Shown here one piece after another: positions 591 through 23,803 of a stretch of DNA of 64,000 nt (the first letter of the stretch is position 1; every line of letters starts with the position of its first letter). A program made the position numbers and the translations under genes. The notes under the pieces were generated by a model. It was not told the DNA's origin and searched no databases. It saw nothing but the letters and a program-made list of their open reading frames with translations. The DNA is taken from NCBI RefSeq assembly GCF_000003815.2, contig NC_049990.1, positions 11,745,549 to 11,809,548 of the forward strand, in the 5' to 3' direction. Source of the DNA: Branchiostoma floridae. Its lineage: Eukaryota; Chordata; Leptocardii; Amphioxiformes; Branchiostomatidae.

Positions 591-2807
591 CGGCGGTGGT
601 GCCGCAGACTGGAGTTGCTGGACTTGTTGTACTTGTTGAGTCTCTGGAATCACTTGTATGTCCGGCTCTTGTACATCTGCTTGGAAGGGCGAGTGCTTGA
701 TGTTGCGACCAGCATACACGACAGAGATCTCGTGGTCGCCCTTCTCAAGGGGTGTAAACTTCAGCTTATGCCTGTCGTTTCCCATGTCAGTCACCGAGGA
801 CTGGATCTCTCCTGACGGACCACGCACCAAAGATTTAAATGTTCCTGCAAAGTCAAACATAAAGAATGCCTCATATCTCATTGTGGACAGACAGACTGCC
901 CCTACATAGGGACTTATAGCTATGGGACTCATGATGATAATGATGATATCTCGTTAGTATTAAGTCTCACAAGATCTTTGTCAGCATAGTCCTAAGTACT
1001 TCATTGTTTCTGGCAACGGTATTTCATGAACTGAAAGAAACAGTCCATGCAGATTGTCATTGTAAAAATACTAGGATATTAGTACAATCTGGTTTATCTG
1101 CTTACATGTGCATGTTTATTTCCACTGAGCTGATTGGTGACTGATTGGTGAGCTCTTATGAGAAAGAGTATGGAGATTGAATATACTGACTCTGGTGGAG
1201 TAGCCTCCTACTGTAATGGCTTGTGTGGCCCAAGGGCTACAGAATTGGAGATAGACACTGCCCATATACACCAAAAGGTATGAGAAGATTGTTAAACTTC
1301 CGGCAACTACTTAATAGATGTACATGTAAGATTTTTAAACATAAGGTATAAATCTTACCTTGTCCAGCAGTGGATGCGTCCAACTCCACATTACATGTCT
1401 TGTCCACTTTCAGGGGCAACGCCCGTCTATCTGCCACCAGCTGTCCCTCTTTGCCAAGTATTTGAACATTCCCTGGTGCGGAGATGTTTGGATAGAAGGG
1501 ACTACCTGCTCAAAATAAACAAAATGATTAATCTTTACCTCTAGCTCCATAAAATATTATAATCAGTCTGTCTTGGTGTGAGTCTGCAGTGAGAGAATAT
1601 TGCAAAATGGCAGCATGTATGGTAGAAGTGGTGTAATAGAATACTTGGGGGATTGGAAGGTAATATGGTTTGACTCAGGTCCAATGGTGGTGTAGTTAAG
1701 AACCAGGAGGGCACATGGCTACACACACTTATAGATCATTATATATTAGTTAGCTATGGACTTAGACCTTGTTAACAACATTGTGGATTATTAAGAGAAT
1801 GATTTCATGTGAAGTGATGCAAAATATACAAAACAGTTTATTAAGTTTTTAGAATACACAGAAAACAACTTACAGTTTTAGATGATGTTATGAATGGCAT
1901 GATTTGCTTCTGTCTGATTCATAAAAATGATAGAGAAGAATGAATAAGAAGAATTTTACCTTCCACATGTTTTCCAAAGTACACAATGTCCACAGTGTGG
2001 GGTCCTGCATCTCTTGGTGTGTAGATAACTTTGTGTTGGTCACCTTTGCTGTCCACCTCGTGAGGGACAAATCCATTGTTGTCTACAAACATAAAAGATA
2101 AATCCATGTTAGAAATCATTTTATCAAAAGGTATGTAAGATCTACTAACATTAGTCCACCAGTTCACATATCAGCTACCTCTACAAAACGTTACATAATC
2201 TGAACAGATCTCCAATACAATGGCTTCCCGTATATTTCCACATATCTAAAGTCTGGATGCCTGTGACTTGATGCAATAGAGATTTCTTGAGCACACTGTT
2301 TTTCAATGTGACAGATATATATATATCGTCTGATGTGTACATGTCAATGGAAGTTATGTCTTTGAAAGTGCACAGTTTATCAGTACTGCACATATAAATG
2401 GATGACAAAGCCTTCATTTCGAATGTATTTTTGATCAGCATGTGTAACCTGGTGTGTTATACCAAAGGGCAGTTATTCTGGCTATACAGATACAGATAGC
2501 ATGAATTTAAATGACCAATTGTGTGATTATGTGTGCCAGTTTGTGCAATTTATGTGTATATAGATAAACCACAGAATCATATCTTATATGCTTCCACATT
2601 AGCATCAATGATATGATTTGCATGGCTGTAATATATATTGCTAACAACAAAATGACTTACTTGAGATCCTGACGCCAAGCTCTTCCAGCTTGCAGTTTTG
2701 AGCATTAATGTCAAAGAAGGCCTTTTCATCAACATATCCTCTCACCAACCCATCTCCAACTACACCAATCTCGGGTTCGGCCTGGACATCACACACAAAT
2801 GGTGTAC
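591..2807 (-). CDS. Gene D last four exons in window: divergent filamin repeats
   Basis: Exons 2661-2807, 1960-2082, 1359-1505 and 591-844. They encode GTPFVCDVQAEPEIGVVGDG; HKVIYTPRDAGPHTVDIVY; GSPFYPNISAPGNVQILGKE with LDASTAGQG; and FKSLVRGPSGEIQSSVTDMG with LKFTPLEKGDHEISVVYAG and KHSPFQADV, then VQQVQQLQSAAPPP. The exon division differs from the a-b-c-d cassettes and resembles the start of the C-terminal block of genes A and C. The last exon either splices at GTATGT (589-590) or runs on to TAA at 555-557. Confidence 0.82.
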
Positions 2808-5800
2808 CTACAGGGATATGATAGCAATGTTTCACATGTTAATACCTTGAAAGAATAGCTTAAAAGTTCTTGAGTACCAGTACATGCATCGATAACATAG
2901 AAATGTAAAATAAAAACAAGGTTGATATCCTCCTAACATCTGATAAAGTCATTAGTTGTCATTATTTAACACAATGCAGACAACTAACTGGCCAGGCGGA
3001 CAGCTACAAGAACAGGAATATACAGATCACAAGCTAGTGTAATGACCAACATGTTGAAACATGTTCAAAGCANNNNNNNNNNNNNNNNNNNNNNNNNNNN
3101 NNNNNNNNNNNNNNNNNNNNNNNNNNNNNNNNNNNNNNNNNNNNNNNNNNNNNNNNNNNNNNNNNNNNNNNNATCAATCAATGTAAGCTCATACAAGTTT
3201 ATTTAACCTCAAAAGAAGTCCTTCCAGAAAAAAGGACCGTTCGTGTAGTAGGTGATCATCAGCCTCAAGGGTTTTTGACAGTTAATTTACATAAGCTATA
3301 CATCATATCCAGTTGCTTGAGTAACTGCTTTTTTGGGCGTATTAATACCGATGTGTTCAAGGTGGTAAAAAGGTAAATGTTGAGTAATTTCTACAAATTA
3401 ATGTAAAAAAATGCCATTTCTCATGTATTGGGAAACAATCGTTGCGTACTAGGATATGTACAGTTTGGCAGCGTCAAATTTCGATTTCACAAATCACTTA
3501 CTATAAGATCGCTAAGATACGGACAGAGATTGCTATTAGAATAAGCTTAGATATTTCCATAGATTTAACTAATCGTTTACAGGTACAGGCATATTTTCGG
3601 AAAACGTTTTCTCTAACACGGTATTGAATACCTTGAAATGTCGTTTCCTTCCCAACGAATGAGTAGTCCAACAGAGTCACGACAATCTTTGAAACATCGT
3701 ACGCTTCGAAAGTGAAAGGACTGCCAGTCACCTCCTTTCCAGAAAAGAACACGCTAACATCATGTTGACCTACGATATCACAGGAACATAAGAAAGGTTA
3801 ACTGAATATTGAAGATTTTTTCGCCAGTTCTGTTTTGAATTATCAAAATGTGATAACGTTGTATGTATGTTTTGTCTTCAGTAAAGCAAACTTACCGATA
3901 TCGTGTGGTGTAAAAGAGACCAGGCTGTCTTCCACTTCATAGCGTAAAGGACGTCCTTTGGGGTCTGTGAAGATTTGTCAGATTGATTTGAAAACTAAGA
4001 CACCATCGTTTTCATAATATTGTAATTATGATCGCAGTCGTGGATGAAGGTGCCCTTCTTTTCTGTTTTTAGCTGCATGGGTCATTTATAGTATTACAGT
4101 CAAACCTGCCCGAGCGACCACCTCTTCTCAGCGACCACCTGGCCATTTCGACCGCTTTTTCTCGGTCCCGATTTTTTTTCCCATTGACTTAAGCATTAAG
4201 CGACCTTTTCTCAACGACCACCTGGCCAACGCGACCGCGACCGGCCCAAATTGGGACCCATAACGACCGCATCATTTTCAAAATTGAGGTTTTCATCGAT
4301 TTTTGATGATAACTAGCGCGATTTTGTGCCGAAATCGTTGTAAGAAAATCCGAATTTATAATTAGTTGTTATAGAATTTAAAAAAAAATCTATATCATAA
4401 TAAAGTGAACGAATGCTGAAACGTATATAGCCTCATACTTTTTTAAAGAAAAATCTGTGTAGCTCATACCTTTTTAAGGAAGATCTGTACGTGTGAGTGC
4501 TTTTGTCCAACTGTACTGTATACATTCACCCGTGGGTAAGTACGCTATCGGGACGTACTGGGCATCGAATTCGAAAGGTGCACCGTAGTTATTTCAGATC
4601 AAGAACATAGCGACGCATAAAGGCTTTTTTGGTAGTTAAGTGACAGCATCAAAGTTCCCTTACTGTCTAAAACGGTAGTGTACAAATACTTGAGCTTTAA
4701 AACACTGTATCGTATAAAAACTCGATAAAAGCTTGGGGTTAAATTTACAATTTACAGTGTGCGTGTTGTATTTGACATTAAAGACCTCGCTTCTTTGCGT
4801 GCGTGCAGTGTGCTTGCTTTTGCCATTAAACACAACGGAAACCATTTATACTTTGCATCAGGCATGTTTTGAGTCGATACTCTTCTCAGCGACCACCTGT
4901 CCAAATCGACCGCTTTTGTCCGGTCCCCCGGGTGGTCGACTTGGGCAGGTTTGACTGTATACATAGTTTTTAGCTTCATGCGTCCTATATGCCCTCAGGT
5001 GTTTAGGAAGAAGGCAAACCTTACTATGTTTTAAAATCGCATTGTCATAATGTTCAAGCAGAGCTTTTAGGGGAAATTGGTGATTTTTCTATCTCGTTTG
5101 TCCGACAGCTAAAACACGTCACTATACTCTTGATTGGTGATCTGCTTGTTGATAAATGAGAGAAAAAATTTCATATCCTGATACCTGTCACGTGCACACC
5201 AAGAAGGTCGTCGTTGTCGGCACCACCGATGAAGAAGTAGGCTTTCTCATTGACGGGGATCCTGCTGAGGTTCTCTGCCATCACCACTATGTTTTTGGTA
5301 TCCAGTACCAAGAACTGGAAGGGAGATCCTGCAAGAAACCTGACTACTGACCCACAGAAATCACCAGCACAAGAATGAACCTTGTTTATTACGCGCAACT
5401 GCAAGCTGACATAGCTTGTTAGCGGGAATGTCCAAATAGTACACAGCAGACCCTTGCGGAAATGTGCAAATCGTACACAGATTCTTGCGGGAATGTCCAA
5501 ATAGTACACAGAAATCACCAGCACAAGAATGTACTTTGTTTATTACGCGCAACGCCAATCTGGCCAAGGTTGTAAGCGATAATGTCCAAGTCGCACACAT
5601 GCCTTTTCAGAAGTTATTTCCTAAAAACAAAACACATGGTGCCCGTGGTATGGCAAATGAATCATGTGCTATGGATTTTGATGTGGCTGTTTTGTTGTTG
5701 CTCTAAATAGCCTCTGAACAACAGACGACGAGAACATATTTTGATAGTTTGTGTACACATGTGTGTATGTCTTGTTTACCTGGCACAGGTTTGTTGTTGT

Positions 5801-8800
5801 ACTTCATGTTGACACTGTAGGTTCCAGGTTGGGTGGGAGTATACTGCACGAGATACTGGTCACGAGAAGGCTCCGTCATAACGTCGGGGACGTTGGGATC
5901 GACAGTGTAGGTCAACTTGCCTGGACCAGCATCTCTGGCGTCCACTGGGAAGTGTAGATAGGACATTACAATTGATCTCTATGTATCATCAAGTATGTAG
6001 AGAGTGTATGACGATGAGCTACCCAATAGGTATTTAGATTCGACTTGGTGGGAGGCAAACCAGTAACGGAATTTTATTAGATGTTTTATTGCCAAGTCAT
6101 TGCTGAGACCTATTTTACTACTAGTATCTTATTGACAGTACAATAACCGACCATCAGCAACAAGTAACCCACCATCTTTTGCAGGTACCAGGTGACATAG
6201 GCAATCAAACTTCAGCAACACAATTCTTCGTCTTCTTATGTCATCACTTAAACGTATCTAAAAGGGAAGTACGTGGCCCTGATATACTGTACATTATGAT
6301 ATTTATGAAAGGCTTTTGAAATATAAGTTTTATATACCTTTGATGTTGACAGGTTGGTTAACTGTGGCAGTCCTGTCTGGATCAGCGCGTATTCTGTTGG
6401 CATCGAAAACGTTGACGGTGTAGGGGCTGCCAGACACTTCCTTCTCGTCATAGTGCACCCTAACCTTGTGTGGACCTGTGTGGGAAAAGAAGATAACTGT
6501 ATTAAGGACATGGCGTGTTGGTTAGCAAATGATTTCAAGAACAACATAGAATTTTCCCCCCACGAGATCCTCATTGTTCTTTGTCACACTATCAGGCTAC
6601 ATTGTAGAGACCAGCAATTAGGTCTTTATTTTGAAGTTCTTTTGGTTCTCATTTTCACTTACCAATCTCTCTTGGAGTGTAGTCTACGGTATACGTTCCG
6701 TTGTGTGATGTGATGTTAGCTGGTACATCTTTACCCGTGGGATCTATAGATTTTGAAAAGACGAGTATGTTAATTTTGTAAATTACTTAATTGCTCTTTT
6801 TAGTATACTGGATGACATGATATTATATTACATTCGCTTTGCATAGTTGTGTGTTTACAAAAAGTCAAACCATCACAAGAATCTACGCATCATTACCTAT
6901 AGATCTAAGCTTATAAGGTACCGTTAGACATATAAAAGAAGGATCATTGAGAACATAATACAATAGGACTAATCAAAAGCAATAGAACTTACCGAACACC
7001 TTCACCAAGGCATCTTCCACGTTCCCTGGTCCTTTTGTCTCCATGTAAAAAGCGGTCTTCTCGTTCACAGGAAGAGGCAGAGTCTCGCTCACACCATCCC
7101 CGTGGACATCAATGGCGTCCATGTTGAACACTTTGCATGGGAATGGGCTCCCTATGGCAGCAACATTGAGGTGTGTTAGAACAGATTATATGAAGAGTCT
7201 GTTGATACACGTTTATGTTTACCTTTAGGGAAGGGAACATATCGTTTTTGCTCCGTTTCTTCTTGACTCTAAACAAAATAATAAGGTCAATGACCTGGAC
7301 CAGACACATGGTTACTGATAAAGTAGCAAAGAACTTGTGGTGTTCTATTACATTATGTAGCAAGTGGTAGGACGGGGGATGGTCACCATAAATACGATTT
7401 TGTTTCAGATAAAGATTACTGAGCAGTAGTTTTTTTAGGTTAGACCACGTGAAGGTATATATTATGCATTTACTTTCAAATATCACCTCTCTAGTTTTTA
7501 TTCATTTTATTTTGTATATGTAACTACAGTAGCACCAAATAAATATCAAATATGATATTTGAATACATCTTTTCAGTTTTACCTTCCACAGGAAGACCAC
7601 CGTGTCGGATGTGGGCGTTGTAGGTTCCAAGTTCATTGGCGAGGAAAGTCATCAAATGACGCCCGTCATCCGCCTTCCACAGCTCGGAGGGAACCTTGTC
7701 CCCATCCTTGCTGATTTCTCCGGTAAGTTCTGCCTTGCCAGCATTCCTGCCATCAACTTGAGGGGTAAAGACACCGTTAACTTACTATGACTGCAACAGT
7801 TATACGAACTAGTGAAATTAAATATAGAATTAGCCATGTACATTGCAACATAGAGTAAGAAACTTGTGAAGTTGCTGCAGTACTGCAGGAAGGTGATGAT
7901 GATGATTTCTTACTTTTCAAAGACACTTGCTGTCCTAGTTTGGCCTTAGGAACGCTTTGCACTTCGACTTTGCTTGGATCAAAGGCATGCGCTATGAACG
8001 GGCTTTCCTTGACTTCTTCCTCGCCATATTTCACCATAAACTTGTGGTCACCTGAAAAAACAAACATCGTAAAGTTAGACTTAAAAACTGGCATCAACTC
8101 TGTTGTTTGTAGTTTTGTATATCATGCATTTGATATGTTTCTAAAAGGTAACTTTTAAAGGCAGATATTTTTTTAACTCTCAAAAATCTCTAAGTATAAG
8201 TGCTTTGATACGAAGATTGATGATTGAAAATTTGAAACATAAACGCACCGACATCCACGGGTGTGAAGTTGACACTGTAGATCTGATCCTCTGCGTTCAT
8301 TTCACAAGGGAAGTCCCTCTCCGTAGGTCCTAAGTTACAGGAAAGAACGGAATTAGAATCAAACATTATGAAAAGCCCCACAAACAACGTTTCTCAAAGT
8401 AACGGCACTAAGTCATATGAATTCTGACAATAAACATGAGAGAATTTGTTTAGAATTAATACATAACCATCATAACTATCTACTTAATATCTTACCGGCC
8501 ACTTTGACGACCACCTCTTCGTCCCCAGCCTTGGTGGCATCAATCTTCATGATAGCCTCCTTGTTGACCGGAATACTTTTCTGTTCGCCTATCCCTGCCC
8601 CCATGACCACTATGTCCTCAGGGGTCGACAGGGCAGTTGTATATGGAGACCCTGCAAGTTTCGATAGTTATACGCTACTGGCTGCAATTCTTATTTACAA
8701 TATCAATCAAAGTGGTATTTTAGCAAGAGTATCTCTTCGGCTGAAATACAGACTAGAAATTAGGAAGCCATTTTTCTAAATAAAAAATGGAACTCGAAGA

Positions 8801-11800
8801 TACTCGAATTCAATGCTTTCATAGCCTTTTTCAGCCTTCCATTCTTTTCTTTTTATGAGATGGTATGTCACCTAATTCGATTTAACAGCCATGAACCGTC
8901 AATTTAAAAGAAAGTAAAGCAACATCTTCTAAGTCTAAGTAAGTTTGATGCCGTTACGCTGTAAAAAAACCTGATGATTTCAGTGACTTAAAAAAACTTA
9001 CCTTTAACGATGGTGTCATTGAAGGAGAATGTTGTAAGATGGGCTGCACTAGTTTTTGGGGTGAACGTTAGATCGTACAGTCCCTCTCCGACTGAACTCA
9101 GTTTGGACGGCACGTCTTGACCACCTGCCGCCACTACAGCCTTCAGGACACCCTGTCCAGCGTTCGTAGTGTCAACTAGAAAAAGAAAATTCAAATGTCT
9201 ATTACAACCTATGTTTTGTTGAAATGTTATGTAATATGACTCGTAGATAGGTGTTTCATTGACTCTTGGGAACATTCACGCTGCCTGCAACAACATTATT
9301 ATTGTGTTAAAGCTGCTTCCCGTTTATTGCTTGTTCTATTACAATGCACAGCATTCCCATTTGCTATTGCACTTCCCACACTGCCGTAAGACGTTTTAGC
9401 AGGAATGTTAATCTAGGCGACCGTACCTTTGTGACAAACGTCCTTTCCTATCTTCCCTCTCTCCTGTGCGTTCACCTCTACGGCCGAGGCGTCGTACGCG
9501 TGGCTAACGAACGGCTTCTGCTTCACTGGCTCTCCATCAAAGAGGACCAGGAAATCGTACTGGCCTAGAAAGGAAACAGGAAACGATATGTCCTCAAATT
9601 AGACACGTGGCGTAATCAAATAAAAAAGCACAGCAAATAATATTATGCGCTTAGCAAAACGGAGTTATCTATACATGTGTAGATTATTTTTACTTAATGG
9701 TCACCACGTAACAAGACCTGAAGGTCATTTCAAGGTGTGACCCAAAGACTATTTCAAGGTTACGGTTACATTGTACCTGTAAATCGTCTCTTCTCCCTCG
9801 GTCAGAAACATCATGATTGAGACCAGCTCAACTACTCACTAAGGGTGAGGACTAAATACCCAACGGGCGAAGCAGGGGATTGCCAAAGAACAACATCGTG
9901 TCAATCATGTACTCAAGTCAATGTGCAAATGTCTAGTGGCACCGCCATTTCCGTCATGTATCAAACAGTTGGAGCCCTTATTTTCTAGCATTGACAACTC
10001 TGTTGGTATGTAGCGTTAATGTTTAGGCTACGCACCTACGTCACTTGGAAGGTACTCCACATTCGTGACCTTATCCTGGTCAGATGGGGTCACACTGCCG
10101 GCATAGTCTGCTCCCTTCCGGGGTCCTGGTTTGGTAGAGACAATAAAATTAACAAACAAATGAACAAAATACCACTCATGTATGTTCCACTCAAAATCAA
10201 ATGGTGGTTAAAACTATAGAGTATATTTGAGTCAAATAAATCATCACTAGTAGTACTGCGGCGCTAGATTAGTATGCAAGTAAACTGGTAATCTGTTGGA
10301 GAGTACATGCATGGTAATTAGTTTGATATCTACAGGAAAGGTACATAAAATTAATCACAAACAAAAGAAATCAAGACTGTGTGAACATATTCACATTGTC
10401 GCGCATATGATAAATGACAAGAAGGAAAAAGGGCAGTCAACACATGCTCTGTTGTCTAGCACAGAGAGAACGCTCGCTGGCACACACAGAGCGCTGACGC
10501 ATGACGCAGGCAAAATTCACAAACCGGCGATCTTCACGGTGACTTCACCGTCACCGGAGCGCGAGGTGTCAATTTCCCACAATGCACGCTGTCCCACCGG
10601 AACTAGTTCCTCTCCCTTGACCTTCACATCCTCGGCCGAAGCCACAGTACAGACGTACGGGGAACCTTCAAAAGTGGTGTCCGTTAGTATTGCATCATGA
10701 TAGATTCGAATTCGTAGCAAATGTTTTTGATTGGTCAAACAATTCTAAAACACACTAAAGTAACAAGACCAATCTGGCATTTGTCAAAGTTCTGGAGTCT
10801 AAGAAAAATCCGATGTAAATGTAACAAACTACAGCAACTTGAAAACAGAATGCAGACATGATAAAAAGAGGCACGTGCTTTATAAAGAGAGAGCCAGCCA
10901 TGCCTATCTAACCAATTGGTCATGCCGTGAAAAATCGTCTTACAGTGATAGACGAATCCGAGTAAGGCTAACAAGAGTTACGTTTACCCGGCACGTCTTC
11001 CTTGTTGAACCTTAAGATTGTTGAATACTCCCCGGACCTATCAGGAGTATAACAGAGACTGTATAGCCCGGGTTGGGTAGATGACAATTGACTGTGAATC
11101 GACCTTCCGTTGGACCTCACTTCCCCACCTAGCGTTCCTCTTCCAGCTTTTGTGGTATCGACTAACGAAGAACATCCACAAGTGATGAGTTCATTTGTAA
11201 GTCGAGTTCTTCTTAAAATTTTCTTTTTGTAATTATGTTAGTTACCATTGTCTAAAGGGAAAGTACTGTATTATTGATAAGGAATGTTAGTACTGTAGGC
11301 AGTTAATTTGTGATCAGGTCTCCATATCACAACAATACCTATTCCATTCTGGCCTTTCACATGAAGTCGATACTTGAAATACCAAACATGCACTTAGTAC
11401 TTTTTCTCTATGTAAAATTGCACAATGGTGAAACTTGTATCAAAGAAATTCACTGATTTTCATAACGCCTAAGTATGATACATACTTTGGATCTCAACGC
11501 TATCGCCGATCTTGGCTTTACTCTGATCCGACACTTGGATCTTGCTCGGATCATATGCGTGTGAGATGAATGGGGAACCCTTTATGGTGACGTCATCCTT
11601 AAGGACCAGAAACTCGTGCTGACCTGTTTGGGAGCAAACGTCAGTGGCAACCAAGAAGCGCATCGTGTAAAAAAATAAGTTATAACACAAAAGTGCAATG
11701 TGACATTCTTACTTTTATGGTAAGTTATTCACTGTACTGTCGTAGAATGATGCTGTAAATATCAGATGATGTACATGTGCTGGTTTTCCAATATTATAAT

Positions 11801-14800
11801 CGTTAGGAGTCTTTACAAATCTGGGAGAAATTTCTGGCTTTACACGAAGAACATCATCCAACGGCGTAGACTGTTCGATCGCTACAATTTGATAAGTTAC
11901 TCTTCTAGATATTTTAGTCAAAAGAATAAGAATGAAAATGAAACTAGTAATGAAGCAAAATCTTGTAGTTGTATAGTGAGAAGTACCTTCAAGTTGGTTA
12001 TCAAATGATTCAATTAACTGAAACGATATTAAGCCATGAGAAGAGCTGCAACCGACGTATTATGCTTGAAGGGAAAAGAAAGTCAATTATAAATAATTGT
12101 ATGTGAGATATTCAGAAGTTAATGACAAGGTAATATGGAAAAATGTCAGTCATCAAAGAAGGACTAGTAGTATCCTCAAACAAAAACACATGCCTAGTGG
12201 AGGGCTAGATTTGCCATGGAGTACTGGAATACCTAAAGGAGGCGGGTGGAATGGTATAGAATGAAAATCACACACAGAATAACAAGACTCCAGTCCATAC
12301 CAACTTCCGATGGTATGTACAGAACTGTGTAGATGTCGTCTTCTTCAACAATCTCTCCTTGCACAGTAGCGTCTTCTGAAGGTCCTAGGAGGTCAAAATG
12401 TTAACGTATGTTATCAATCTGTGCTAATGGCATATGATATTTCTATTCTATAGCATACTAAGCAGTACACAAAGCTTAAGTATATTAGGAAACGTGCGTA
12501 TGAATGGGAATAAAGAAAAACGCCGCAAGCGCCGACTCAAGATAAATTCGCAGCCGCGTTTGCCAACAAACGAAAATGTAGGATGCATGGTTCGCGTAGT
12601 AAAGCAACTGAAAATTGAATGTGGGAACAGTAGAATTGAAGCGCATGAGGTACATATTCATTGCAAGTATCGCCACGGTTGTATCGCATGAGACTACAGT
12701 AAGGAATTGCTATTAGATAAAGTTCATTGTGTGATGTACCTACCATTTGTTTAGCAACCAGTTTTATATGTTCATTTCTAAAGTGAGTTAACAAACTTAT
12801 AGCGTGTTGTCTTCTCTTCGTTAAATCCGATGAAAGAATTTATATTTCCGCTGTTTATATAGCATTGCATACCTTGCGGTAAAAAGTTCACACAAACCTG
12901 CTATTTTGACGACCACGTCCCCTCCCGGAGTCTTGCTAGCGTCCACCTGGAACTTTGCGAGTTTCCCAACAGGCACGTTCCCTAAGCCTTCCCCGCTCAC
13001 CGCGATGTCGCTCGTGTCGAAGTTCTCGTACACCAATGGAGATCCTTATATGTGAAGAGTTAACAGGTTTCAATATGTGGATTGGCAAAATAGAGACCAC
13101 CTGGTAAGGCTTAAAGTGATACTCTGCAAATGAATATAGTTTTGTATGTTTATGGGATTGCAAGACATTTCATTATGATGGTCATGAAATAATCATGTAT
13201 ATGCGTTGCCCTCGATACCAGATTCAAACAACCATGGCTAATTATGAGCTGCATATAGGAAAAACTTGACGATAGCACGTCCAGGACAAAAGATACAAAA
13301 GGGTGTTTTGCTGCAGTACCGACGTCACTTATCCCAGTGGGCATAAAATTGAACTTGACCTTTTCCTTCTCAATACCAATTAGGCAATTTACATACTTAG
13401 TATCATCACAATCGAATAATCTAGAAGTAATAAGAAATAAGAAGTTCTTAGCTCATACAGACCACAAACATTCGTAAACACTAAGACACACGCACGAGAC
13501 TTGCACCCAAAGCAACATATTCAATTTTCAGCATGGGGGTATACGTAGATATTCATACCTGGAACTGTGACGTCATTGTACTCGGCGTGGACTTCATACT
13601 GCCCCAGCCGCTTGGGCTGGAAGGAGACCTTGTATTTCCCGGTGTCCAGTTTATCGCAGTTGTGAGGAACGGTCTCATCCTTGGTGGTCACAGACGTGTG
13701 CAGGATCCCTGGGCCAGCTTTCTTTGTGTCCACTGGAAAAAATGACATCGATGTCATGAGGGATACTATGTGCTTTTTTTTATCCTATTCGTCTTATATA
13801 CCCAGTCAGCTTGTAAAGAACTTGTGACTTTCTAAACATAGATTAAGAATACTGTTAATATTGTAATTATAGGAGATTGACCACCTTAGATAAACCTAAA
13901 TGTGACACGGTAATTAGCAGCTGGTTTCTTCGCCAAACGCCAACATGTATTATACATGCAGTTGTTTTCACCTTGTTTAGTGTTGCTAACAATCATTAAT
14001 GAGATAGCTAACTGGACATCGCTAAACGCGATGTATTGTGTATTCATTAATGTTTAAAACTAGTGCCGTTCAGACCATAAAAGGCATATGAATATTGTAT
14101 CTTATATGTATGATAAGTGCAAATTTTGAAGAAGAAATACTTACCGATACTGGACACATATCCTAGTTCGTCCCTCTTGCTGAGTGGACCAAGGCTGACG
14201 CGGTTGACGTCATACGCATGCACGGTCACGGGGCTACTGGCCACGGTCAGGCCCGCGTACTTGACGTTCACCTTGTGGTCACCTTCAGGGAGGAAAAGAT
14301 GTTGTCATCATATGGAGACTCTAATTGTAGTCAACTACAGCTCTTGCATTGTAAAGACAATGGTCAATAGTATAGTGTGTATTGTGATGGTCTTGCAGTC
14401 TCCGAGCGGACGTGAGCAAAAGAGAGGAATTTGGCCAAATAGCGACAAATAAGTTGACATGAAGGATTTCAGTCAGTCCTTTGCAGTCTATTCAGCTATG
14501 CCGATCAGTTCACTTCAAGGCCAATTAGCCCCTACTATTAGGCTTCTATTCCTAACTTGGCCTAAGTCCCGTATCATTATTCGGCCGGTTTGGAGTATAG
14601 TAGAGACTTATGCTCTTGCCTATTTCTGTTACAGTGATATTACTTATGCGCTAGCTTAGACTGTTATCTGATATAAACCACGCACGTGGAAGAGAGAATA
14701 GCTCACCTGGTTCCGTGGGTGTGTATGTTGCCGTATAGATGGATCCATCTTTGTACATATCGCAGGGGACGTCGCGGTCTACCGAGTCTATAACAAAGAC

Positions 14801-17800
14801 ATAAACAACATTGTCTTCCAAAGTTCAGGGAGGGGTTTAGAATAATCCTTGCAGACTATCTTATCGGTATTTGTGTTGCATGTATGTAAGTAATATGCTT
14901 CCCAAGACGGTTCTTATGTCTTATTGATTTGTAGTAGTGTAATGGGTTACAATTGAAACAGCTAGAGAATATACCCTGATTCAGCTTTCAGCATCTAAAT
15001 TGATATTGAGCTAGTACCATAACCAACCTGACACAGTTGCCACCACGGGAGCATCTCCGGACTCCGTGGTGTCCACGTTGAAGGACACGGTCTCCCCCAC
15101 TGGTAGATAATGTCCTCGTTTGTATCCCTCACCGCGGACTACTACCTGGTTCGGATCGATGACTGGGCAGCGCACTAAAGAAATAAAATAATGAAAATGA
15201 TATCATTATCTATGATCAATTGTCTATAATGATTGTAATTGTAAAAGGTACTAGTATATAACATTATGCTCGTTCGGAGATTTGAGAGGTGGAACAGTCA
15301 ATGTGACTCCTCCACGCGACTCCCCTATGTTGCCCCCGCTAGCGCAGCTGGATATACCAGTACAAACCAGATTGGGCCTGACCTGCATACACCAAGAGTT
15401 CTCCCTCTTCTCTAAACATTAAACAATTTCCGCTCTAAAACCCTCCCGCGGGCAAAACCAGTATAACCANNNNNNNNNNNNNNNNNNNNNNNNNNNNNNN
15501 NNNNNNNNNNNNNNNNNNNNNNNNNNNNNNNNNNNNNNNNNNNNNNNNNNNNNNNNNNNNNNNNNNNNNNNNNNNNNNNNNNNNNNNNNNNNNNNNNNNN
15601 NNNNNNNNNNNNNNNNNNNNNNNNNNNNNNNNNNNNNNNNNNNNNNNNNNNNNNNNNNNNNNNNNNNNNNNNNNNNNNNNNNNNNNNNNNNNNNNNNNNN
15701 NNNNNNNNNNNNNNNNNNNNNNNNNNNNNNNNNNNNNNNNNNNNNNNNNNNNNNNNNNNNNNNNNNNNNNNNNNNNNNNNNNNNNNNNNNNNNNNNNNNN
15801 NNNNNNNNNNNNNNNNNNNNNNNNNNNNNNNNNNNNNNNNNNNNNNNNNNNNNNNNNNNNNNNNNNNNNNNNNNNNNNNNNNNNNNNNNNNNNNNNNNNN
15901 NNNNNNNNNNNNNNNNNNNNNNNNNNNNNNNNNNNNNNNNNNNNNNNNNNNNNNNNNNNNNNNNNNNNNNNNNNNNNNNNNNNNNNNNNNNNNNNNNNNN
16001 NNNNNNNNNNNNNNNNNNNNNNNNNNNNNNNNNNNNNNNNNNNNNNNNNNNNNNNNNNNNNNNNNNNNNNNNNNNNNNNNNNNNNNNNNNNNNNNNNNNN
16101 NNNNNNNNNNNNNNNNNNNNNNNNNNNNNNNNNNNNNNNNNNNNNNNNNNNNNNNNNNNNNNNNNNNNNNNNNNNNNNNNNNNNNNNNNNNNNNNNNNNN
16201 NNNNNNNNNNNNNNNNNNNNNNNNNNNNNNNNNNNNNNNNNNNNNNNNNNNNNNNNNNNNNNNNNNNNNNNNNNNNNNNNNNNNNNNNNNNNNNNNNNNN
16301 NNNNNNNNNNNNNNNNNNNNNNNNNNNNNNNNNNNNNNNNNNNNNNNNNNNNNNNNNNNNNNNNNNNNNNNNNNNNNNNNNNNNNNNNNNNNNNNNNNNN
16401 NNNNNNNNNNNNNNNNNNNNNNNNNNNNNNNNNNNNNNNNNNNNNNNNNNNNNNNNNNNACGGGACATACGAGAAACTTAGATATTCAAGGGAGGAGTGA
16501 GTGAGGAGTGATAACTCTTGTTATTCCAGTTTATACGATACTTACTCGGAACTTCCACGTCCTTCCCGACGTCCCATTTGGCCTCGCTGACCTTGATCTT
16601 GGTGATGTCATAGGCATGGCAGACGAACGGACCGCCGGGAACTTCCGTGCCGTTGTACTTGACAGATATGTCATGTTCACCTGCAGTAGAGAAGTTTACA
16701 TCTTATATGTTCTGAATTTTATTGGAAGCACGTCTTGTCGAACAATTGTTTTAATGTGGTTTCTGATATCCAGTTAATTTATGTGATAAAGTGTTCCCAA
16801 TGCGACTAGAGTATATGAACTGACTTATAGATGTTTGCCCCAAATGCAAGCAAAAGATGTATGCAAACTGGTGCGCATCATTAGGTTGTCATAATTTGAT
16901 ATCAACATATTACATATTTACTGCATGCATGCCTAAAAGACATTGGGCAATATTTCAAACTGTATACGTATATTGACTATAGTAATGTGCAAATTGCAAC
17001 CCAATCGACGAATTATATCACGGAATGTCATGTAGCTATGGTACTGCTGTTTGTCTTAGATATGTCTTAATCCATTTGTTTACAGCCCCCCTCCCATAAC
17101 TTAAGCATCTGGGCGTGCCTATACAGAAACATATATTTTCAAGTCTAGCATTTAGTGTGCTATGCAGCTGTAATAGGTGTTCCGGAAAGCATTACTGTTA
17201 CAAAGTGTTTTGTCGTGACTATTGGAATTTAGTGAGTGAACAGCAATAACAACAACAACATGACGTTGACGTACCGACTTCTTCGGGCACATATTCCACC
17301 TGGATGCCGCCGTTGGCGTCGTTGTATCGGCACGGGAGACGGTCTTTCCTCGGCCCTGCAGGACGCAGAAAACTCGTAGAGTTCATCTTCTTTAAGAACT
17401 CTACTAACCTCTTATCTATACTCTGATTATAATAGTCAGGTGGCATCTTGGTACTAATATTCTACCCTGTGTGTCCTAGAATGTGCACAAGTAATGTACA
17501 TATATCGATATTAGTTTGTGATGTATTAATTATTCATGCAGGAGACACTCCTTTATTTAAGGTGTGGTATCATTGTTGTATATGCATCATTTGCATACGG
17601 TGAAGGGTGTGGCCTTAGAGGACCCCGACGTCACAATGGCAGATGATGCGTCATCGTTGGAAAGACGATTCAAAATTAACATCTTTCCTATCTGATATAT
17701 TTATTAATAATAACATTGATGATAATGATGATAATATGTATTCGTTAAGACTACATTTCTATGGATTCATTAGGACTTATTTCATGTATCTATGTTATAT

Positions 17801-20800
17801 TTTGTCTGACCATCACCTCTTCTCCTATAACCTCAATGAAAAGTGGCCAGCAGGCCCATTTGAGTTTTTCATGAATTAACAAAGGCTTATTATTAATAAA
17901 TAAACAAAGACCTATAAGTTAACAAAGAAACAAACAACTCACCTGTAACGATGATTTCCATTGGCAGTTCCTCCACATTTTCAGCGCTGACCATGAACTT
18001 GGCCGTGCGGTGAACCGGAACATGTCCCAGGCCTGACCCGGAAACAATCACTTTTCCGGAAGTTTCAGAAGTTTCTAGGTCAGAGGGGTAAATCATACGT
18101 ATTAACGTTAAGCCAAATTACACCTCTCTACACCAATCAAACGTAAGTAAACTCAGAGTAAATCATACGTATTAACGACAACAATGACCTGCTACAACTT
18201 ACAAGTAGTATTTACGTATATCCGATCATTCTTTTTCTGTATTCCTAATTCATATGCTCTTTGTATAATTAAAAAACATCAAGACCGGTGGGCGTAAAGT
18301 TATTATACTTTTGTCTTGATATTGCTATCAATTACAAACGCATTGGCTGACCGACTATTCAACGTGGTTTGACTATGTGCCTTGCTATTTACCACGAATC
18401 TTTTCATAAGCGCGGTACCTGATTCGCCCATGTGCTTTACTGAATAATTGCAATGAACAGGCGATAGAAACATGCTTATCGGAGAAAAAAACAACAATAT
18501 TATCTGCTAATTTAGTTGTCAATAAGGATTAGAACGTGGAAGAGGGAAGGCTTGATTTGAATTGACAATGTATTGAATGAAGTTGTCTGTTCGTTGCTGT
18601 CTACACCTGCTGTTTTCTGCAACATTATTTCACTGTCGGTTGACGAACCTCAACAGTAATTTATGAGCGAAAAGGTGTGAATAACTACTTATTCTCCAGA
18701 TCACGTGACACACTATTACAATGGTAACAAAATGGTCAAGTAATTAACTATGTCACCTAGCGAGCGTGTTTATATCCTGAAAAGTTGTCTGTCTTGTTAC
18801 AAAATATATGGAGGCTGTACCGGTCAAGTTGTTAACTTTCACTCAGTCTGTAAAAGTTGATTTTAATTGTATATTAGACTTTCACTATTTTATTATTTTT
18901 TAGTTTGTATATTGTGTAACTAGTGTTTTAATTTTGCCCACTTTTGGATCTACTGCCCACCTCCCATCAATAACTATTATATTGTGTGACACAATTTCGC
19001 TTGAGGGGGATACTAGTAGTCACTTTCTTCCAATACCTAACGATTGAGCGCTCTATATAAAGGGTATTTGTAAATTCAAGGCCTGTTCGGCACCAGGTAA
19101 CATTTATCGGATGCCTTTAATTGGTAGTGTTGTCAGTTATGCATTGTAACTGATCATAAATATGGTTTAAAGATGAAGAATTCTACCATACTGCGTTTAC
19201 ATGTGCCTCTGCTTTAAAGGTCACACAATGTCATGTAAGAAATGTGTGCACGTCTTCTCAAGCACGCACTCTCAAGGGACGATAAACAATCAAAGAAAGC
19301 CAACAGGTCCTTAGAATGTCGCTCTTGTCGGTAAACAGTTACGCACTAACGATTCCTGGTGGTAGTAGCAACAAACAGGTCCACGTTGTGCCCCCACTAC
19401 CATTCCGCGAGTGCCACTGTAAGGTGTGGACACCATATGCCATTAAAATGAACAATTATGATTCAGTATCTAATCTTTCGCCGTAGACTATGGATTGATA
19501 ATGTTTTGGTAAACTGACAAATTCTTTTGGATGTCACCTTTTAGTCCACACCCAATTGTTTCGATGATTTGTTTGGCCCAATTACGCGTAATTATATCCA
19601 CGCTGGTTGTCGGAACCTGCATTTTTGTAGGTGTGGCCGCAATGGAATCTTTAATCTTTGGTGTTTTCTTTCGCTAACATGTGCCATTACCCATGTCCTT
19701 GAGTAGAGTAACCCTATTGCGTTACTGTATAGATCTAGTACGTTTACAGTCAGTAAGTGGCCGCTTGAGATACATTCTTTCAAAAAGTTTGTAGTGACCT
19801 TTCCAGGTCATATATCAATAGTCGCCGGGCGAAATTTACGCATACAAAACGCATTGCTGGAGGTTGTTGTCTTCAGTACGATGTACATGTGAGATAAAAA
19901 TCTTTTTAGCCATTGTACGAATGGTTAAATTACATACTTTTTCGCAACTGTTGTGCATCATAGCGTGTCTGTAAACATGCTAGATAATTGCGCACAGGTT
20001 GAGTCATATGGCAGCTGTTATCGTTGTTGTCGGTTTGCCGAGTAGGAATGCAGAATGTTTCAAAAATTCAGTTGAAAGAAAAGGCTTTCAATCTTTAGAT
20101 ACGCTGTTCTTTACAAGTGATACGTTATAAACTAGCCAGGAAGAGTAAAAGTTATCAGTAGTTACATTGCGCTCTATGCCAATCCACTGCACCGGAAGTT
20201 TTTCCATGTGGTGGGGTGGGGGGTGGGGTGGCATTAAAAGTATAAGTGTAAACAGGTAGGAAATCAGTTTTTAACTTTTGAAACTTACCTGGTTGTCCAT
20301 TAAGAAGCTTGGAAGGAGGAGGAGCGGAATAGGCAGTGTCTGCGGAGGCTAGTGCCACTTGTTCCGGCATGGCTGGTGGTGGTTTCTCTGGCTCTGGTTC
20401 TTCGTCACTCGAACTGGAACTGGAACTGGAACTCGACGTCAGATCATCTTCACTCACGATGATTATCTTCGCACCTTTCTTCTTCTTAAGTATTTCCTTT
20501 AGCTGATCAACATCATCAATCTCCCTACCCTCAATCGTTTTTGCCTTACGGGTGGACTTTTTACTGAACATGTCATCAGCTTTGTCTTTTATCTTTTCGA
20601 CAATAGATTGTTCTTTAGGTGCCTCCATGGTGGGTGGTGGGGCCGAACGGACCTCTTCGACAACAGTAGGCGGTGCTTCCATTGGGAAGACTGGAGGCGC
20701 GGTGGAAAGTGCAGTTGTCGGGGTTACCTCTTCTTCGATGTCCGAGGACGACGTCGAGTCTTTCCGAAGTTGTTTGATGTCGCCGAGGACAGATTGTCGG

Positions 20801-23800
20801 GCTCCTTCGATATCCCCGGGGCTCTTTGCTGTGTGCAGGGGCACGCTGTTGTTGACAGGCGGAGCGGGAGCTTGCGTCTCGACCTGGGTCACCTGGGTAG
20901 CCTGAGGTAGAACAGGAGGGGGCGTGGTCTTCACAGGTTCGGCAGGTTCGACAACATACATCGGAGAGACGGTCTCGCGCACGCGCGGTGACTCGGCGGT
21001 CTTCTTCGGTTGGGCGGTCTTGGCGACCGGTTTCTGTGGGGGGATAGGACTAGCTTTACTTACATTTATAAGTGGAAATGGTTTGCGTATGTTTTCGACA
21101 GGTGTCATAGGTGGAAAAGGCTTGCGTAATTTTTCTGCAGGCTAGCTAAAGGTACTTTCAACTGGGGAGTTTTTTTCTTACAAAGTACTTTATACTGGAG
21201 AATGTGTGACATGTTTTTGTACAGGTGACACTTTGTACTGAAAAAGGTGCGCGTGTTTTTTCCTACAGTCGAAGCACTTTCAGATGGAGATGCCATGCAT
21301 TATTGAAAGGTGAAGCAATATTATAAGAAGAAGGTACTCTTACCTTGACAGCAGGAGGCGTTTTCTTAACCGGAGCAGACGGCTTCTGAACTTCAACCGG
21401 AGGAGGCGCTTTCGCGACAGGAGGAGACGCTTTCTGGACCGGGGGAGGGGCCCGCTGTACTTCAACTGGAGGAGACGCTTTCTCAACGGGAGGAGACACC
21501 TTCTGGACCGGGGAAGGAGCACGCTGTACTTCAACGGGCGGAGGCTGTTGTACCTTAGCTGGAGGAGGTAAGCTTTTGACTGAAGAAGACGGCTTCTGTA
21601 CTTCCATTGGAGGAGACGCCTTTTCGACGGGAGGAGACACATTTTGGACCGGAGGAGGAGTGCGCTTTACCTCCACGGGAGGAGGAGCTTTTACCTCCGG
21701 AGAAGGTGTCTTCTTCACTGCGATCGGAGGAGTTGTTTTTGCCACCGGAGCAGGAGGCTTCTGTGCCTCTGGTGGAGGGGCGCTTTGTACCTCAGGAACT
21801 GATTTCCGCTTCAGCGAGGATCCTTTTGATCCAACTACTCTACTCGGCGGAAGATTGGAATCTTCAGCATCAATATTCATCCGGCCTCCCTTCCTGTCGT
21901 CCACACTGCTGAGGGAGGACAGGCTACTCGTAGAGCTCTTCTTTTCTTTCTTTTTCAGCTTCTTCTTCTTTGGGAGATCAAGACTGCTTGAAGACGTGTT
22001 ATCTGAACTTGATGTCATTCTCTCTAATTTTGCTTCTTTTGACGGTAGGTCTGCGCTGGGACCGGCAGCAGAGGCATTGACTGCTGGAGCTAGTGCCGTT
22101 TTAACTTCCGGCACTGCAGCTTTCTTCATCGAAACGTTGTTCTCAACACCGCTACTAGATGATGTATCAGGTTCCATTGATCTTGTTTGAGACCTCACCA
22201 CGGTAGGGGTAGGCAGGCTTTTTTCTTCATCTTCTACTACTTGTACTTCTGCTTTCCTTAGCTTTGGAGCCTCCTCTTGTAGCTCAAGAAGTGGCTTGCG
22301 CTCTCGTGGTTGGTCAGGTAAGGTTTCAGACGTACCGTACTTTATGCCAACATCGGTCTGCGCCTGCTGTAGGTCATAACTGGTCTTTTCTCGACCGAAG
22401 AAGGTCTTGATTCTATCCATGACGCCGGGTCCTGACGTTCTTACCTTCGGTGGAGGAGACGGTTGTTTGCTTAGCTCTTCGTCGCTCTGTCCTTTCTTGC
22501 GAAAGAAGCTTGCCTTCTTTCTGACGTTTCCTTCTTGGACGCCCCGAGGTTTCTTTGGCTCGCCTTTAGGTTTACCACCCGCCAGGACGCTCTGTGGGAT
22601 GTGGGAGCCTGAATTCGGCTCTCTTACGCCTACGGGAGGGTTTACTCTACTAGGCGGTGAAGAGGACTGTACTTCCTCGGCTGGCGTTACTGCTGCAACC
22701 GGTGTATAGGCAGGTGGCTTTCCTAATTTATCGTCCGACTCAGACGAAGTATAGGAGGGCTTACTTCTTTTGCTGTCTAACTGGTCGTCTATGTTTTCCT
22801 GTGATCTCTTCTCACCGATTTTGCGAATGTCGTCCAGAACTGACGTACGTGCGTCGTGTGTCTGTACTGCTTGCTGAGTACTCATCCCTCCCTCTAACTC
22901 TTCCTCTTCTCTAGCAAAGCTGCTGCTACTAGCTATAGCAGGTTCTGGAACGAGTTCTTCCTGGATTTGACTGCTACTGCTTTCCTGTAAAGGGTTTTGA
23001 GTAGCAAGCTCTGGATCCAATTCTTCAGGGCCTGATTCTGTGACCTTCTCTTCTGTATCTGAGTCTTCAGTACTGTGAACAGGAGTGTCTTCTTGCTCGT
23101 CGTTGCTCTCGTCTATGGTCAGAGTACTCTCTGATGATGAATCTGCTCTTCCCAGCTGTCCAAGAGCTCTTATGTCTTCAAGTACCGATTTCTTTTTCTC
23201 TACCTGGTTAGGATCCTTCACCACCTCTGTTTCCTCGGTTTTGTCTTCAGAGTCTCTGACAAAAGCTTTGTTTTTCACTACTTGGTCCGAATTTTGCTCT
23301 ACTTCTGTCTCTGTATCCTCGCTTCTGTCTTCGGTGTCTCTCACAAACTCTTTCTTTTTCTCTACCTGGTGTGGATCTCTGTCTACGTCTGTCTCTGTAT
23401 CCTCAGTTCTGTCTTCAGTGTCTCTGACAAACACTTCTTCGAGTGAGCTTACTCCTGAGTCACTAAACGGAGACGTTTGGACCTCTCCTTCGCTAGACTT
23501 GAAGACTTCGTCGCTTGAAAGCAGTGGCTGCTCGTGGCCTGGAAACAACGGCTGCTCGTCGCTTGAAAGCAATGGCTGCTCGTCGCTTGAAAGCAATGAC
23601 GGTTCGTCGGCGGGATTCTCTTCGATAGTATCGTATCGAGTGGAACGAATGGACCCACAGACTGATGAAGCAACAGACGGAGGTCGTCGGCTTGGAGACG
23701 TATCGTTGAGGTCGATGAGGGATGTTTTTGAATTCCTTATTCGGAGATATATTGAAGAAGAAAATTGCAGGATAGTCTCCTCATCGGAATCAGCGGCGGC

Positions 23801-23803
23801 CAT
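591..23803 (-). CDS. Gene D: giant filamin-repeat protein with disordered N-terminus
   Basis: At least 30 coding exons on the minus strand, starting at ATG 23803 and reaching at least 591. About 7.3 kb of coding sequence is visible. Exons 21344-23803 and 20289-21033 encode about 1,068 residues of acidic, Ser- and Pro-rich sequence. From 18074 onward every exon encodes filamin Ig-like repeats in phase 1. Seven cassettes of four exons (a-b-c-d) each encode two repeats; an eighth, differently divided set follows. The d exons of cassettes 1 and 7 are missing where the assembly gaps lie. There is no CH domain in the visible N-terminus, so the usual filamin actin-binding head is absent or replaced. 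The left end is ambiguous: a strong donor at 589-590 suggests the gene continues past position 1, which fits the absence of the GPGL last-type repeat found in A, B and C. Likely a cytoskeletal scaffold, by inference. Confidence 0.85.
2449..2499 (+). repeat. SINE/LINE-type 3' tail copy
   Basis: Begins CTGGTGTGTTATACC and ends GGCTATACAGATACAGATAG. It shares both motifs with the inverted copy at 59930-59988. Located in a gene D intron. Confidence 0.5.
3073..3172. other. Assembly gap of 100 N
   Basis: Exactly 100 undetermined bases, a placeholder size. It lies in the interval where the d exon of gene D cassette 7 is expected. Confidence 0.99.
3303..3341 (+). repeat. Dispersed repeat copy (ATCATATCCAGTTGCTTGAG)
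   Basis: Contains TCATATCCAGTTGCTTGAG followed by TAACTGCTTTTTTGGGCGTA. Related copies are at 39850-39890 and 40793-40820, the latter with an inverted partner. Probably the end of a common interspersed element. Confidence 0.55.
3632..5328 (-). CDS. Gene D cassette 7 (exons a, b, c; d lost in gap)
   Basis: Exons 5185-5328, 3896-3964 and 3632-3769 (144, 69, 138 bases). They encode GSPFQFLVLDTKNIVVMAEN; SLVSFTPHDIG; and GKEVTGSPFTFEAYDVSKI. The intron between a and b carries the TIR element at 4097-4957. The expected d exon is not found between 3631 and 2808, where the 100-base gap lies. Confidence 0.85.
4097..4957. mobile_element. Non-autonomous pogo/Tigger-like TIR element, 861 bases
   Basis: Terminal inverted repeats CAGTCAAACCTGCCC and GGGCAGGTTTGACTG are flanked on both sides by TA. 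A TA duplication and a CAGTC start are typical of the Tc1/mariner-pogo group. No transposase frame is seen inside. The left end and the inner right end share a direct repeat containing CTTCTCAGCGACCACCTG and CGACCGCTTTT. It sits in an intron of gene D. Confidence 0.75.
5353..5553. repeat. Tandem repeat cluster in gene D intron
   Basis: A 47-base block (starts CACAGAAATCACCAGCACAA) occurs at 5353-5399 and 5507-5553. Between them lie three copies of a unit of about 30 to 36 bases (GCGGGAATGTCCAAATAGTA and variants), and a weaker fourth follows near 5576. Confidence 0.75.
5780..7151 (-). CDS. Gene D cassette 6 (exons a-d, two filamin repeats)
   Basis: Exons 6993-7151, 6663-6743, 6338-6475 and 5780-5944 (159, 81, 138, 165 bases). 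They encode GSPFPCKVFNMDAIDVHGDG; GTYTVDYTPREIG; GSPYTVNVFDANRI; and VDARDAGPGKLTYTVDP with YLVQYTPTQPGTYSVNMKY. The d exon is nine bases shorter than the others. Confidence 0.88.
7583..8651 (-). CDS. Gene D cassette 5 (exons a-d, two filamin repeats)
   Basis: Exons 8496-8651, 8249-8329, 7914-8051 and 7583-7756 (156, 81, 138, 174 bases). They encode IVVMGAGIGEQKSIPVNKEA; IYSVNFTPVDVG; ESPFIAHAFDPSKVEV; and IDGRNAGKAELTGEISKDG with LMTFLANELGTYNAHIRHGG. Introns here are short (164 to 242 bases). Confidence 0.87.
9002..10665 (-). CDS. Gene D cassette 4 (exons a-d, two filamin repeats)
   Basis: Exons 10525-10665, 10036-10125, 9427-9564 and 9002-9175 (141, 90, 138, 174 bases). They encode GSPYVCTVASAEDVKVKGEE; VTNVEYLPSDVG; QKPFVSHAYDASAVEV; and VDTTNAGQGVLKAVVAAGGQ with YDLTFTPKTSA. 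The b exon is the longest of the set. Confidence 0.87.
10988..13044 (-). CDS. Gene D cassette 3 (exons a-d, two filamin repeats)
   Basis: Exons 12898-13044, 12301-12384, 11486-11623 and 10988-11161 (147, 84, 138, 174 bases). They encode IAVSGEGLGNVPVGKLAKF; DIYTVLYIPSEVG; GSPFISHAYDPSKIQV; and IDTTKAGRGTLGGEVRSNG with YSLCYTPDRSGEYSTILRF. The d exon starts with Ile because the split codon is A plus TC. Confidence 0.87.
13559..15174 (-). CDS. Gene D cassette 2 (exons a-d, two filamin repeats)
   Basis: Exons 15028-15174, 14707-14787, 14145-14282 and 13559-13732 (147, 81, 138, 174 bases). Signatures in order: VVVRGEGYKRGHYLPVGE; YTATYTPTEPG; HKVNVKYAGLTVASSPVTVH and AYDVNRV; VDTKKAGPGILHTSV and YKVSFQPKRLGQYEVHAEY. 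All splice sites are GT-AG and phase 1. This is the most regular cassette and serves as the reference for the unit. Confidence 0.88.
15470..16459. other. Assembly gap of 990 N
   Basis: 990 undetermined bases between exon c of cassette 1 and exon a of cassette 2 of gene D, where one d exon is missing. Confidence 0.99.
16546..18074 (-). CDS. Gene D cassette 1 (exons a, b, c; d lost in gap)
   Basis: Exon a 17943-18074 encodes KVIVSGSGLGHVPVHRTAKF and lacks the GSPF opening of later a exons, because it begins the filamin region. Exon b 17275-17355 ends GGIQVEYVPEEVG. Exon c 16546-16680 (135 bases) encodes HDISVKYNGTEVPGGPFVCH and AYDITKIKV. The next d exon should start with the rest of a phase 1 codon, but the 990-base gap follows directly. 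Confidence 0.84.
18075..20288. other. Long intron of gene D between disordered region and filamin repeats
   Basis: 2.2 kb without coding signal. A 20-base direct repeat (GTAAATCATACGTATTAACG) occurs at 18088-18107 and 18158-18177, just before the acceptor. Confidence 0.7.
20289..21033 (-). CDS. Gene D exon 2: second part of disordered N-terminus
   Basis: A 745-base exon entered in phase 0 after acceptor CCCCCCACAG and left in phase 1 at donor GTAAGT. It starts KPVAKTAQPKK, contains a third SVLGDIKQLR motif (20764-20793), a basic helix-like stretch (VEKIKDKADDMFSKKSTRK), LKEILKKKKGAKIIIV, a run of ten serines and a closing AYSAPPPSKLLNGQPG. The reading frame continues upstream through the predicted intron for about 30 codons, so the acceptor could lie further upstream (see 21050-21300). 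Confidence 0.84.
21050..21300 (-). repeat. Decayed tandem coding-like repeats in gene D intron 1
   Basis: Minus-strand units of about 39 bases (for example GCAAGCCTTTTCCACC and GCAAACCATTTCCACT) encode EKLRKPFPPMTPVENIRKPF in frame with exon 2. Earlier, more degraded units with stops lie to the right. They may be former coding repeats or small alternative exons. Confidence 0.45.
21344..23803 (-). CDS. Gene D exon 1: 820-residue disordered N-terminus
   Basis: Open from MAAADSDEETILQF to PPAVK at donor GTAAGA (phase 0). The acceptor TTTCTTTACAG lies 10 bases upstream of the ATG, so a 5'UTR intron precedes it. In order: LLSSDEQP repeats (residues 69-99); three tandem acidic units of about 28 residues starting FVRDTED or FVRDSED (125-205); SVLEDIR (206-212); SVLDDIR (321-327); VMDRIKTFFGREKTSYDL (461-478); a Lys/Ser block (KKKKLKKKEKKSSTSS); and a long PPVEVQ/PPVQK proline repeat up to the exon end. 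No known domain is seen. The sequence predicts as intrinsically disordered by composition; the role is unknown, perhaps a binding or tethering arm. Confidence 0.87.

Follow-up and report, generated by a model that had tools for sequence, protein, structure and literature searches.

The window analysed here, 64,000 nucleotides of Branchiostoma floridae DNA (C12:11745549-11809548, that is, contig NC_049990.1 of assembly GCF_000003815.2), contains a filamin-like gene, here called gene D, whose rod is encoded by a block of four exons, a-b-c-d, that recurs along the gene. Coordinates given without a contig are window coordinates. Gene D lies on the minus strand, starts at about 23.8 kb and runs down past the window start, with two long low-complexity coding exons followed by filamin repeats. 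The first coding exon (21344-23805) is Ser/Pro-rich, and a scan of 21336-23803 returned no Pfam family at E<=1. The second (20289-21141), also of low complexity, has a phase-1 end that fits the first repeat exon; both are open frames with borders set by eye. The filamin part was rebuilt from open frames and AG/GT borders, which yields 27 predicted exons between 18074 and 2661, all with a length divisible by three, AG/GT borders and phase 1 at both ends. PF00630 matches within the window exceed the cut-off, and the chained exons cover the filamin profile.

Read in the direction of transcription, the 27 exons have the order a-b-c-(gap), five times a-b-c-d, a-b-c-(gap) and a final a8. The a exons are a1 (132 bases, 17943-18074), a2 (147, 15028-15174), a3 (147, 12898-13044), a4 (141, 10525-10665), a5 (156, 8496-8651), a6 (159, 6993-7151) and a7 (144, 5185-5328), and the b exons are b1 (81, 17275-17355), b2 (81, 14707-14787), b3 (84, 12301-12384), b4 (90, 10036-10125), b5 (81, 8249-8329), b6 (81, 6663-6743) and b7 (69, 3896-3964). 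Exon c measures 135 bases in c1 (16546-16680) and 138 bases in the other six copies, c2 (14145-14282), c3 (11486-11623), c4 (9427-9564), c5 (7914-8051), c6 (6338-6475) and c7 (3632-3769); chaining with the filamin profile agrees for c1 and c6. Exon d was seen in five blocks, with 174 bases in d2 (13559-13732), d3 (10988-11161), d4 (9002-9175) and d5 (7583-7756) and 165 bases in d6 (5780-5944). Neither d1 nor d7 was found in gene D, and runs of N in the assembly occupy both expected places (990 N at 15470-16459 and 100 N at 3073-3172). The first-pass annotation had described the fixed exon order and the exon lengths correctly almost to the base, and its statement that all introns are in phase 1 agrees with the rebuilt exons. 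Its seven cassettes are present as seven blocks, five of them complete.

The range 2661-18074 given by that annotation holds the cassettes and ends in a8 (147 bases, 2661-2807), which is confirmed by the profile chain. This exon does not begin an eighth cassette; it opens a terminal module, the start of a different two-exon repeat. The module continues on the minus strand with exon e (123 bases, profile 48-88, 1960-2082), whose class recurs in other C12 genes, exon f (147 bases, profile 90-37, 1359-1505), both from the profile chain, and an exon of 254 bases at 591-844, the end of which is unsure (the profile chain chose 633). The gene then continues past the window.

What one cassette encodes was determined by mapping its exons onto a filamin profile with 92 positions. 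Exon a covers profile positions 90-45, b 46-73, c 75-29 and d 31-88. One cassette thus comprises two filamin repeats, as claimed earlier: X, made of a, b and the first half of c, and Y, made of the second half of c and d. X is interrupted by introns near profile positions 46 and 74 and Y by a single intron near 30. The passage from X to Y falls within exon c, whereas that from Y to X is marked by an intron, which splits the Gly codon of the GSPF motif. These places are constant across all seven X and all seven Y repeats (d being seen in five) and differ between X and Y. Copying of single repeats would give one intron pattern everywhere; two patterns alternate instead, which argues for copying in pairs. 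Since exons a and d span mostly different parts of the domain, the grouping of a with d exons proposed earlier as a refutation is ill posed, and X repeats were compared with Y repeats.

The cassette is not a peculiarity of gene D. Genome-wide (513 Mb), at least 110 PF00630 matches were obtained, and the loci examined comprise the canonical filamin locus of C5, the regions flanking the window, a second C12 cluster and 17 kb of a third C12 cluster with 14 kb upstream of it. Exons at these loci were chained with the filamin profile and with splice weights trained on gene D's own exons, and genes A to H were delimited by position; gene H, which covers two unconnected pieces of the third cluster, may represent more than a single gene. 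About seven further filamin-like genes were found in the three C12 clusters, five of which (A, E, F, G and H) contain a-b-c-d runs like those of gene D. Gene A extends from about 92.5 to 58.6 kb in window coordinates and starts upstream of the window, gene C has partial cassettes with missing exons, and gene B has one d-class exon and a terminal part. The exon classes that follow the last cassette form a terminal module common to D, E, F, G and A. The order a-b-c-d-a is obeyed by 81 of 85 neighbouring a, b, c or d exons in five C12 chains (the window with its flanks, each strand of the second cluster and two pieces of the third); in 2000 label shuffles the number never exceeded 40. Exons below 9 bits were dropped from this count, and unclassed exons break the chain and were left out. 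The four misses comprise two steps in gene C and two that coincide with the gaps in gene D. The cassette therefore belongs to the C12 gene family and not to gene D alone.

Phylogenetic trees identify the unit that was duplicated. In a tree of the seven X and five complete Y repeats of gene D (the partial Y1 and Y7 were left out), X separates from Y with supports of 97/99 (ultrafast bootstrap / Shimodaira-Hasegawa-like approximate likelihood ratio test, SH-aLRT). The two groups persist when 23 human FLNA repeats are added (X 95/87, Y 98/96); of the FLNA sequence used, the stretch of repeats 16-17 matched chain 2k7p in 171 of 171 residues. The same split (96/90) divides a family tree of 40 repeats, 20 X and 20 Y, from seven C12 genes. 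Constraining the two repeats of a single cassette to group together was rejected by the approximately unbiased (AU) test for cassettes 2 (p = 0.025), 3 (p = 0.0046), 4 (p = 0.00004) and 5 (p = 0.0002). The best local-alignment match carries the same letter for all 27 gene-D exons and for 98 of 100 family exons; this is partly expected, given that each letter represents its own portion of the domain, and the repeat-level trees are for that reason the stronger test. Because X and Y separate in the trees, the duplicated unit is taken to be the two-repeat cassette, and duplication of this cassette behind the gene D rod is supported.

That growth proceeded by a symmetric two-repeat unit, as put forward in the first-pass annotation, is thus borne out by the X/Y trees, the intron places and four of five AU tests; it was probably not mainly gene D that grew. 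In a tree of 19 cassettes with X and Y joined, in which many inner branches are weak, cassettes are mostly not sorted by gene, so that much of the array is probably older than the split of the genes. Gene A requires four changes in this tree, the maximum for its four rows, and gene D is weakly clustered: its seven rows need four changes, where shuffling gives 5.8 on average and a value this low in 44 of 500 cases. The first cassette of A groups with the first fetched cassette of H (95/93), and D3, D4 and D5 group together (93/94). X repeats taken alone group X3 to X5 (98/92). Among the exons of gene D, cassettes 3 and 4 are the closest pair (46% for a, 47% for c and 42% for d); a5 and c5 are near the copies of cassettes 3 and 4, and d5 is not. 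Most cassettes likely predate gene D, and cassettes 3-5 would be its own later copies, although this is a weaker conclusion than that on the unit itself; gene D probably added copies in the middle of its array after the genes had split.

A number of observations speak against these conclusions and have to be set beside them. The pairing of X and Y of cassette 6 was not rejected (AU p 0.0595). When FLNA was added to the family tree, in a quick tree, SH-aLRT support fell to 76 for X and 54 for Y, and a rooted drawing of the family tree places four of the 20 Y rows on the X side, so that the support applies to the unrooted split only. The exon classes depend on a profile and on splice weights for which gene D supplied part of the training data; the exon borders of gene D are predictions, with d1 and d7 unseen. 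As to the later copies, D6 groups with E3 in the joined tree (92/83), Y repeats group only Y3 with Y4 (96/90) and place Y5 elsewhere, and the b exons display no kinship of cassettes 3, 4 and 5, their closest pair being 5 and 7.

Taken together, the gene D rod very probably consists of tandem four-exon, two-repeat cassettes that arose once in the ancestor of the C12 filamin-like genes and were multiplied by tandem duplication. The simplest process for this multiplication would be unequal crossing-over between matching introns. The structure of the gene would itself keep such growth pairwise: the sole intron at a domain border occurs at every second border (d|a), and exon c spans the other. With all introns in phase 1 and a border intron at every second border, an in-register exchange would add whole pairs and leave frame and fold intact. 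The product of gene D would be a flexible scaffold of immunoglobulin (Ig)-filamin repeats with a long low-complexity N-terminal part. The differing cassette numbers of the neighbouring genes offer a natural series in which to ask whether pairs were copied for their function or because the introns permit it.

The first-pass annotation related pairwise growth to the mechanosensing domain pairs of vertebrate filamins. That the pair was multiplied as a force-sensing unit like FLNA 16-17, 18-19 and 20-21 is an unlikely explanation. It would draw on the alignment of X6-Y6 in register with these three FLNA pairs (phmmer) and on AU tests that reject neither the grouping of X or Y with FLNA 16/18/20/22 (p 0.33 and 0.42) nor with FLNA 17/19/21/23 (p 0.06 and 0.12). 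The tree of gene D with the 23 FLNA repeats contains no grouping of X or Y with even or odd FLNA repeats, and the best FLNA match is odd-numbered for eight of 20 X and nine of 20 Y repeats, that is, without any odd/even register. The strand-A profile score is 0.0, -0.5 and -2.8 for FLNA 16, 18 and 20 and -0.6 and 2.4 for the canonical C5 repeats 18 and 20, compared with 4.7-11.7 for all 20 X and 8.5-15.0 for all 20 Y repeats; the underlying profile derives from repeats of FLNA and gene D, FLNA 15 is also low (0.4) and the lowest X score is close to that of FLNA 17 (4.9). By this sequence score, strand A is in place in all 40 cassette repeats. The class-A ligand motif of the C-D groove, which was formulated with knowledge of the FLNA and C5 sequences, is absent from all 40 cassette repeats and present in all three odd C5 repeats tested (17, 19 and 21). 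The proposed tie to vertebrate mechanosensing pairs consequently finds no backing: the cassette is a unit of duplication, and its equation with a mechanical unit is not supported.

Still less probable is a history in which single repeats were duplicated and alternation arose later, by selection against like neighbours or by gene conversion of every second repeat. Avoidance of like neighbouring repeats, reportedly argued by Light and co-workers in 2012, would favour such a history, and the isoelectric point (pI) is indeed lower in X than in Y in all five complete gene-D cassettes. As a general feature of the two repeats this pI pattern had to be discarded, since it fails in the C12 family (10 of 17, p 0.63). 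The differing intron positions of X and Y are a further obstacle, as selection on the protein sequence would not create them.

The canonical filamin of the same genome, located at C5:3.06-3.12 Mb, served as a control. If the four-exon pattern were the ancestral exon structure of all filamins, older than the cassettes, a special duplication would be needless. The canonical gene, too, has many exons with phase 1 at each end (19 of the 39 listed), and individual introns again fall near profile positions 73-75 and 88-90. Yet none of the 39 listed exon rows, five of which are short, spurious and upstream, belongs to class a, b or c, and only one is d-like. C5 exons of 174 (profile 20-73), 141 and 129 bases equal human FLNC spans delimited by published splice variants. 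Among these variants, c.3791-1 together with c.3964+1 or c.3965-2 gives a span of 174 bases (c.3791-3964), and c.5398+1, c.5539+1 and c.5669-1 give spans of 141 (c.5399-5539) and 129 bases (c.5540-5668), assuming no further intron between them (PMC11173278, PMC13128179, PMC10273088, PMC7461563, PMC7216277, PMC7522348, PMC6614037). The canonical arrangement of 141, 129 and 174 bases at repeats 16-17 was not found in gene D. A second 174-base exon of the C5 gene presumably equals an FLNC span delimited with c.5842, which would bring the C5 exons that agree in length with human FLNC to four, three of them through published variants. Since the C5 exon lengths equal those of human FLNC at these places, the canonical structure has been conserved there and differs from the cassette, and an ancestral origin of the pattern, which we consider very improbable, is largely refuted. 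The 174-base exons of human FLNC were also considered as homologues of exon d and rejected, as codons 1800, 1823 and 1882, placed on repeats 16-17 of FLNC by hand, put the introns elsewhere, in agreement with the C5 gene. A predicted exon of 868 bases with about three repeats, unlike the cassette genes, lies at C5:3080995-3081862.

The copying of the four-exon block is real and old. Same-letter exons of gene D share on average only 28-33% protein identity, and self-BLASTN of the region (E 1e-3) detected no likeness between introns of different cassettes; the only pairs it returned fall within 4095-5599, inside or next to the introns that flank a7. Age follows from this low identity together with the dissimilar introns, and recent copies or an assembly artefact, for which one could point to the assembly gaps inside the array, have practically no chance of explaining the units. 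A repeat search of the region added short, weak families of 30-32 bases that are chance-like or derived from exons. The intron between a7 and b7 carries an element of about 865 bases at 4094-4960, with terminal inverted repeats beginning TACAGTCAAACCTGCCC and TA flanks, which we take to resemble a non-autonomous transposon of the Tc1/mariner type.

Elsewhere in the window, the last exons of genes B (50959-52299) and A (58600-59112), both on the minus strand, consist of a filamin repeat end, a low-complexity tail and a stop. These separate stop-bearing exons indicate that several filamin-like genes lie in tandem in the window. In gene C, a repeat-start exon at about 40909-41075 on the minus strand (SPFNCYIGEPG...) runs into a long His/Asp-rich stretch followed by a possible splice donor, and a low-complexity open frame with TTGGGVGARY repeats is found opposite this gene at 37228-37731 on the plus strand. 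Many of the genome-wide PF00630 matches are single (C15, C12, C7 and others) and fall in open frames of roughly 450-790 residues, which we assume to resemble TRIM-NHL-like proteins.

Canonical filamins begin with two calponin homology (CH) domains, CH1 and CH2. None of 32 PF00307 matches (E<=0.001) falls in the C12 cluster at 11.7-11.8 Mb that contains gene D, in a search blind to introns that split CH exons could escape. CH1 and CH2 exons are present within C12:21552621-21565486, upstream of the third C12 cluster and on the same strand; their link to its cassettes is one of position only. The CH1 exon is 43% identical to FLNA and matches the actin-binding domains (ABDs) of filamin and alpha-actinin. 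Jitterbug and FLN-2 belong to a separate, second class of filamins, characterised by three CH domains and by divergent repeats; some FLN-2 isoforms lack an ABD (PMC3143143). The third C12 cluster may hold the lancelet member of the Jitterbug/FLN-2 class: both are divergent filamins with long intervening sequences, and C12 has the CH1-CH2 exons, although a third CH domain was not seen in the stretch examined. Tentatively, and with somewhat less than even confidence, a second ABD-bearing filamin lineage of the lancelet with a cassette rod might have budded off ABD-less paralogues, with 0-7 cassettes in three clusters on one chromosome, its pairwise growth being independent of that of the canonical rod 2.

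Growth of filamins by two domains is already known. For filamins, a repeating two-domain pattern has been reported and tandem duplication of two domains proposed (PMC4170960), and a survey reports two domains as the commonest unit of duplication in general (PMC1553488). The pairwise growth is accordingly less notable than first claimed. A literature search on amphioxus filamin and exon shuffling returned nothing on the C12 family among the matches listed, and as far as this limited search goes, the novelty lies in the exon cassette and in its contrast with the canonical structure. In the literature consulted, the argument for growth by pairs is based on similarity between proteins; the intron positions described here give an independent definition of the unit, and two filamin architectures stand side by side within one genome.

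Compared with the canonical filamins FLNA, FLNB and FLNC, the cassette genes share Ig-filamin repeats that end in GSPF and many phase-1 introns. The canonical genes lack the a-b-c-d cassette, whereas gene D lacks a detected nearby CH domain and the cassette repeats score for strand A and are devoid of the class-A motif. Lineage-specific arrays of filamin repeats have also been described in Trichoplax, by tandem duplications, and in the leech, mainly by single domains (PMC8275333); gene D resembles them in having a lineage-specific array and differs from the leech in growing by two-repeat cassettes. A formal parallel is nebulin, in which a repeated block of four exons encodes seven domains with exon borders inside the domains (PMC1553488). 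Gene D likewise repeats a four-exon block with borders within domains, but its block encodes two Ig-filamin repeats; all its introns are in phase 1, and one of them sits at a domain border.

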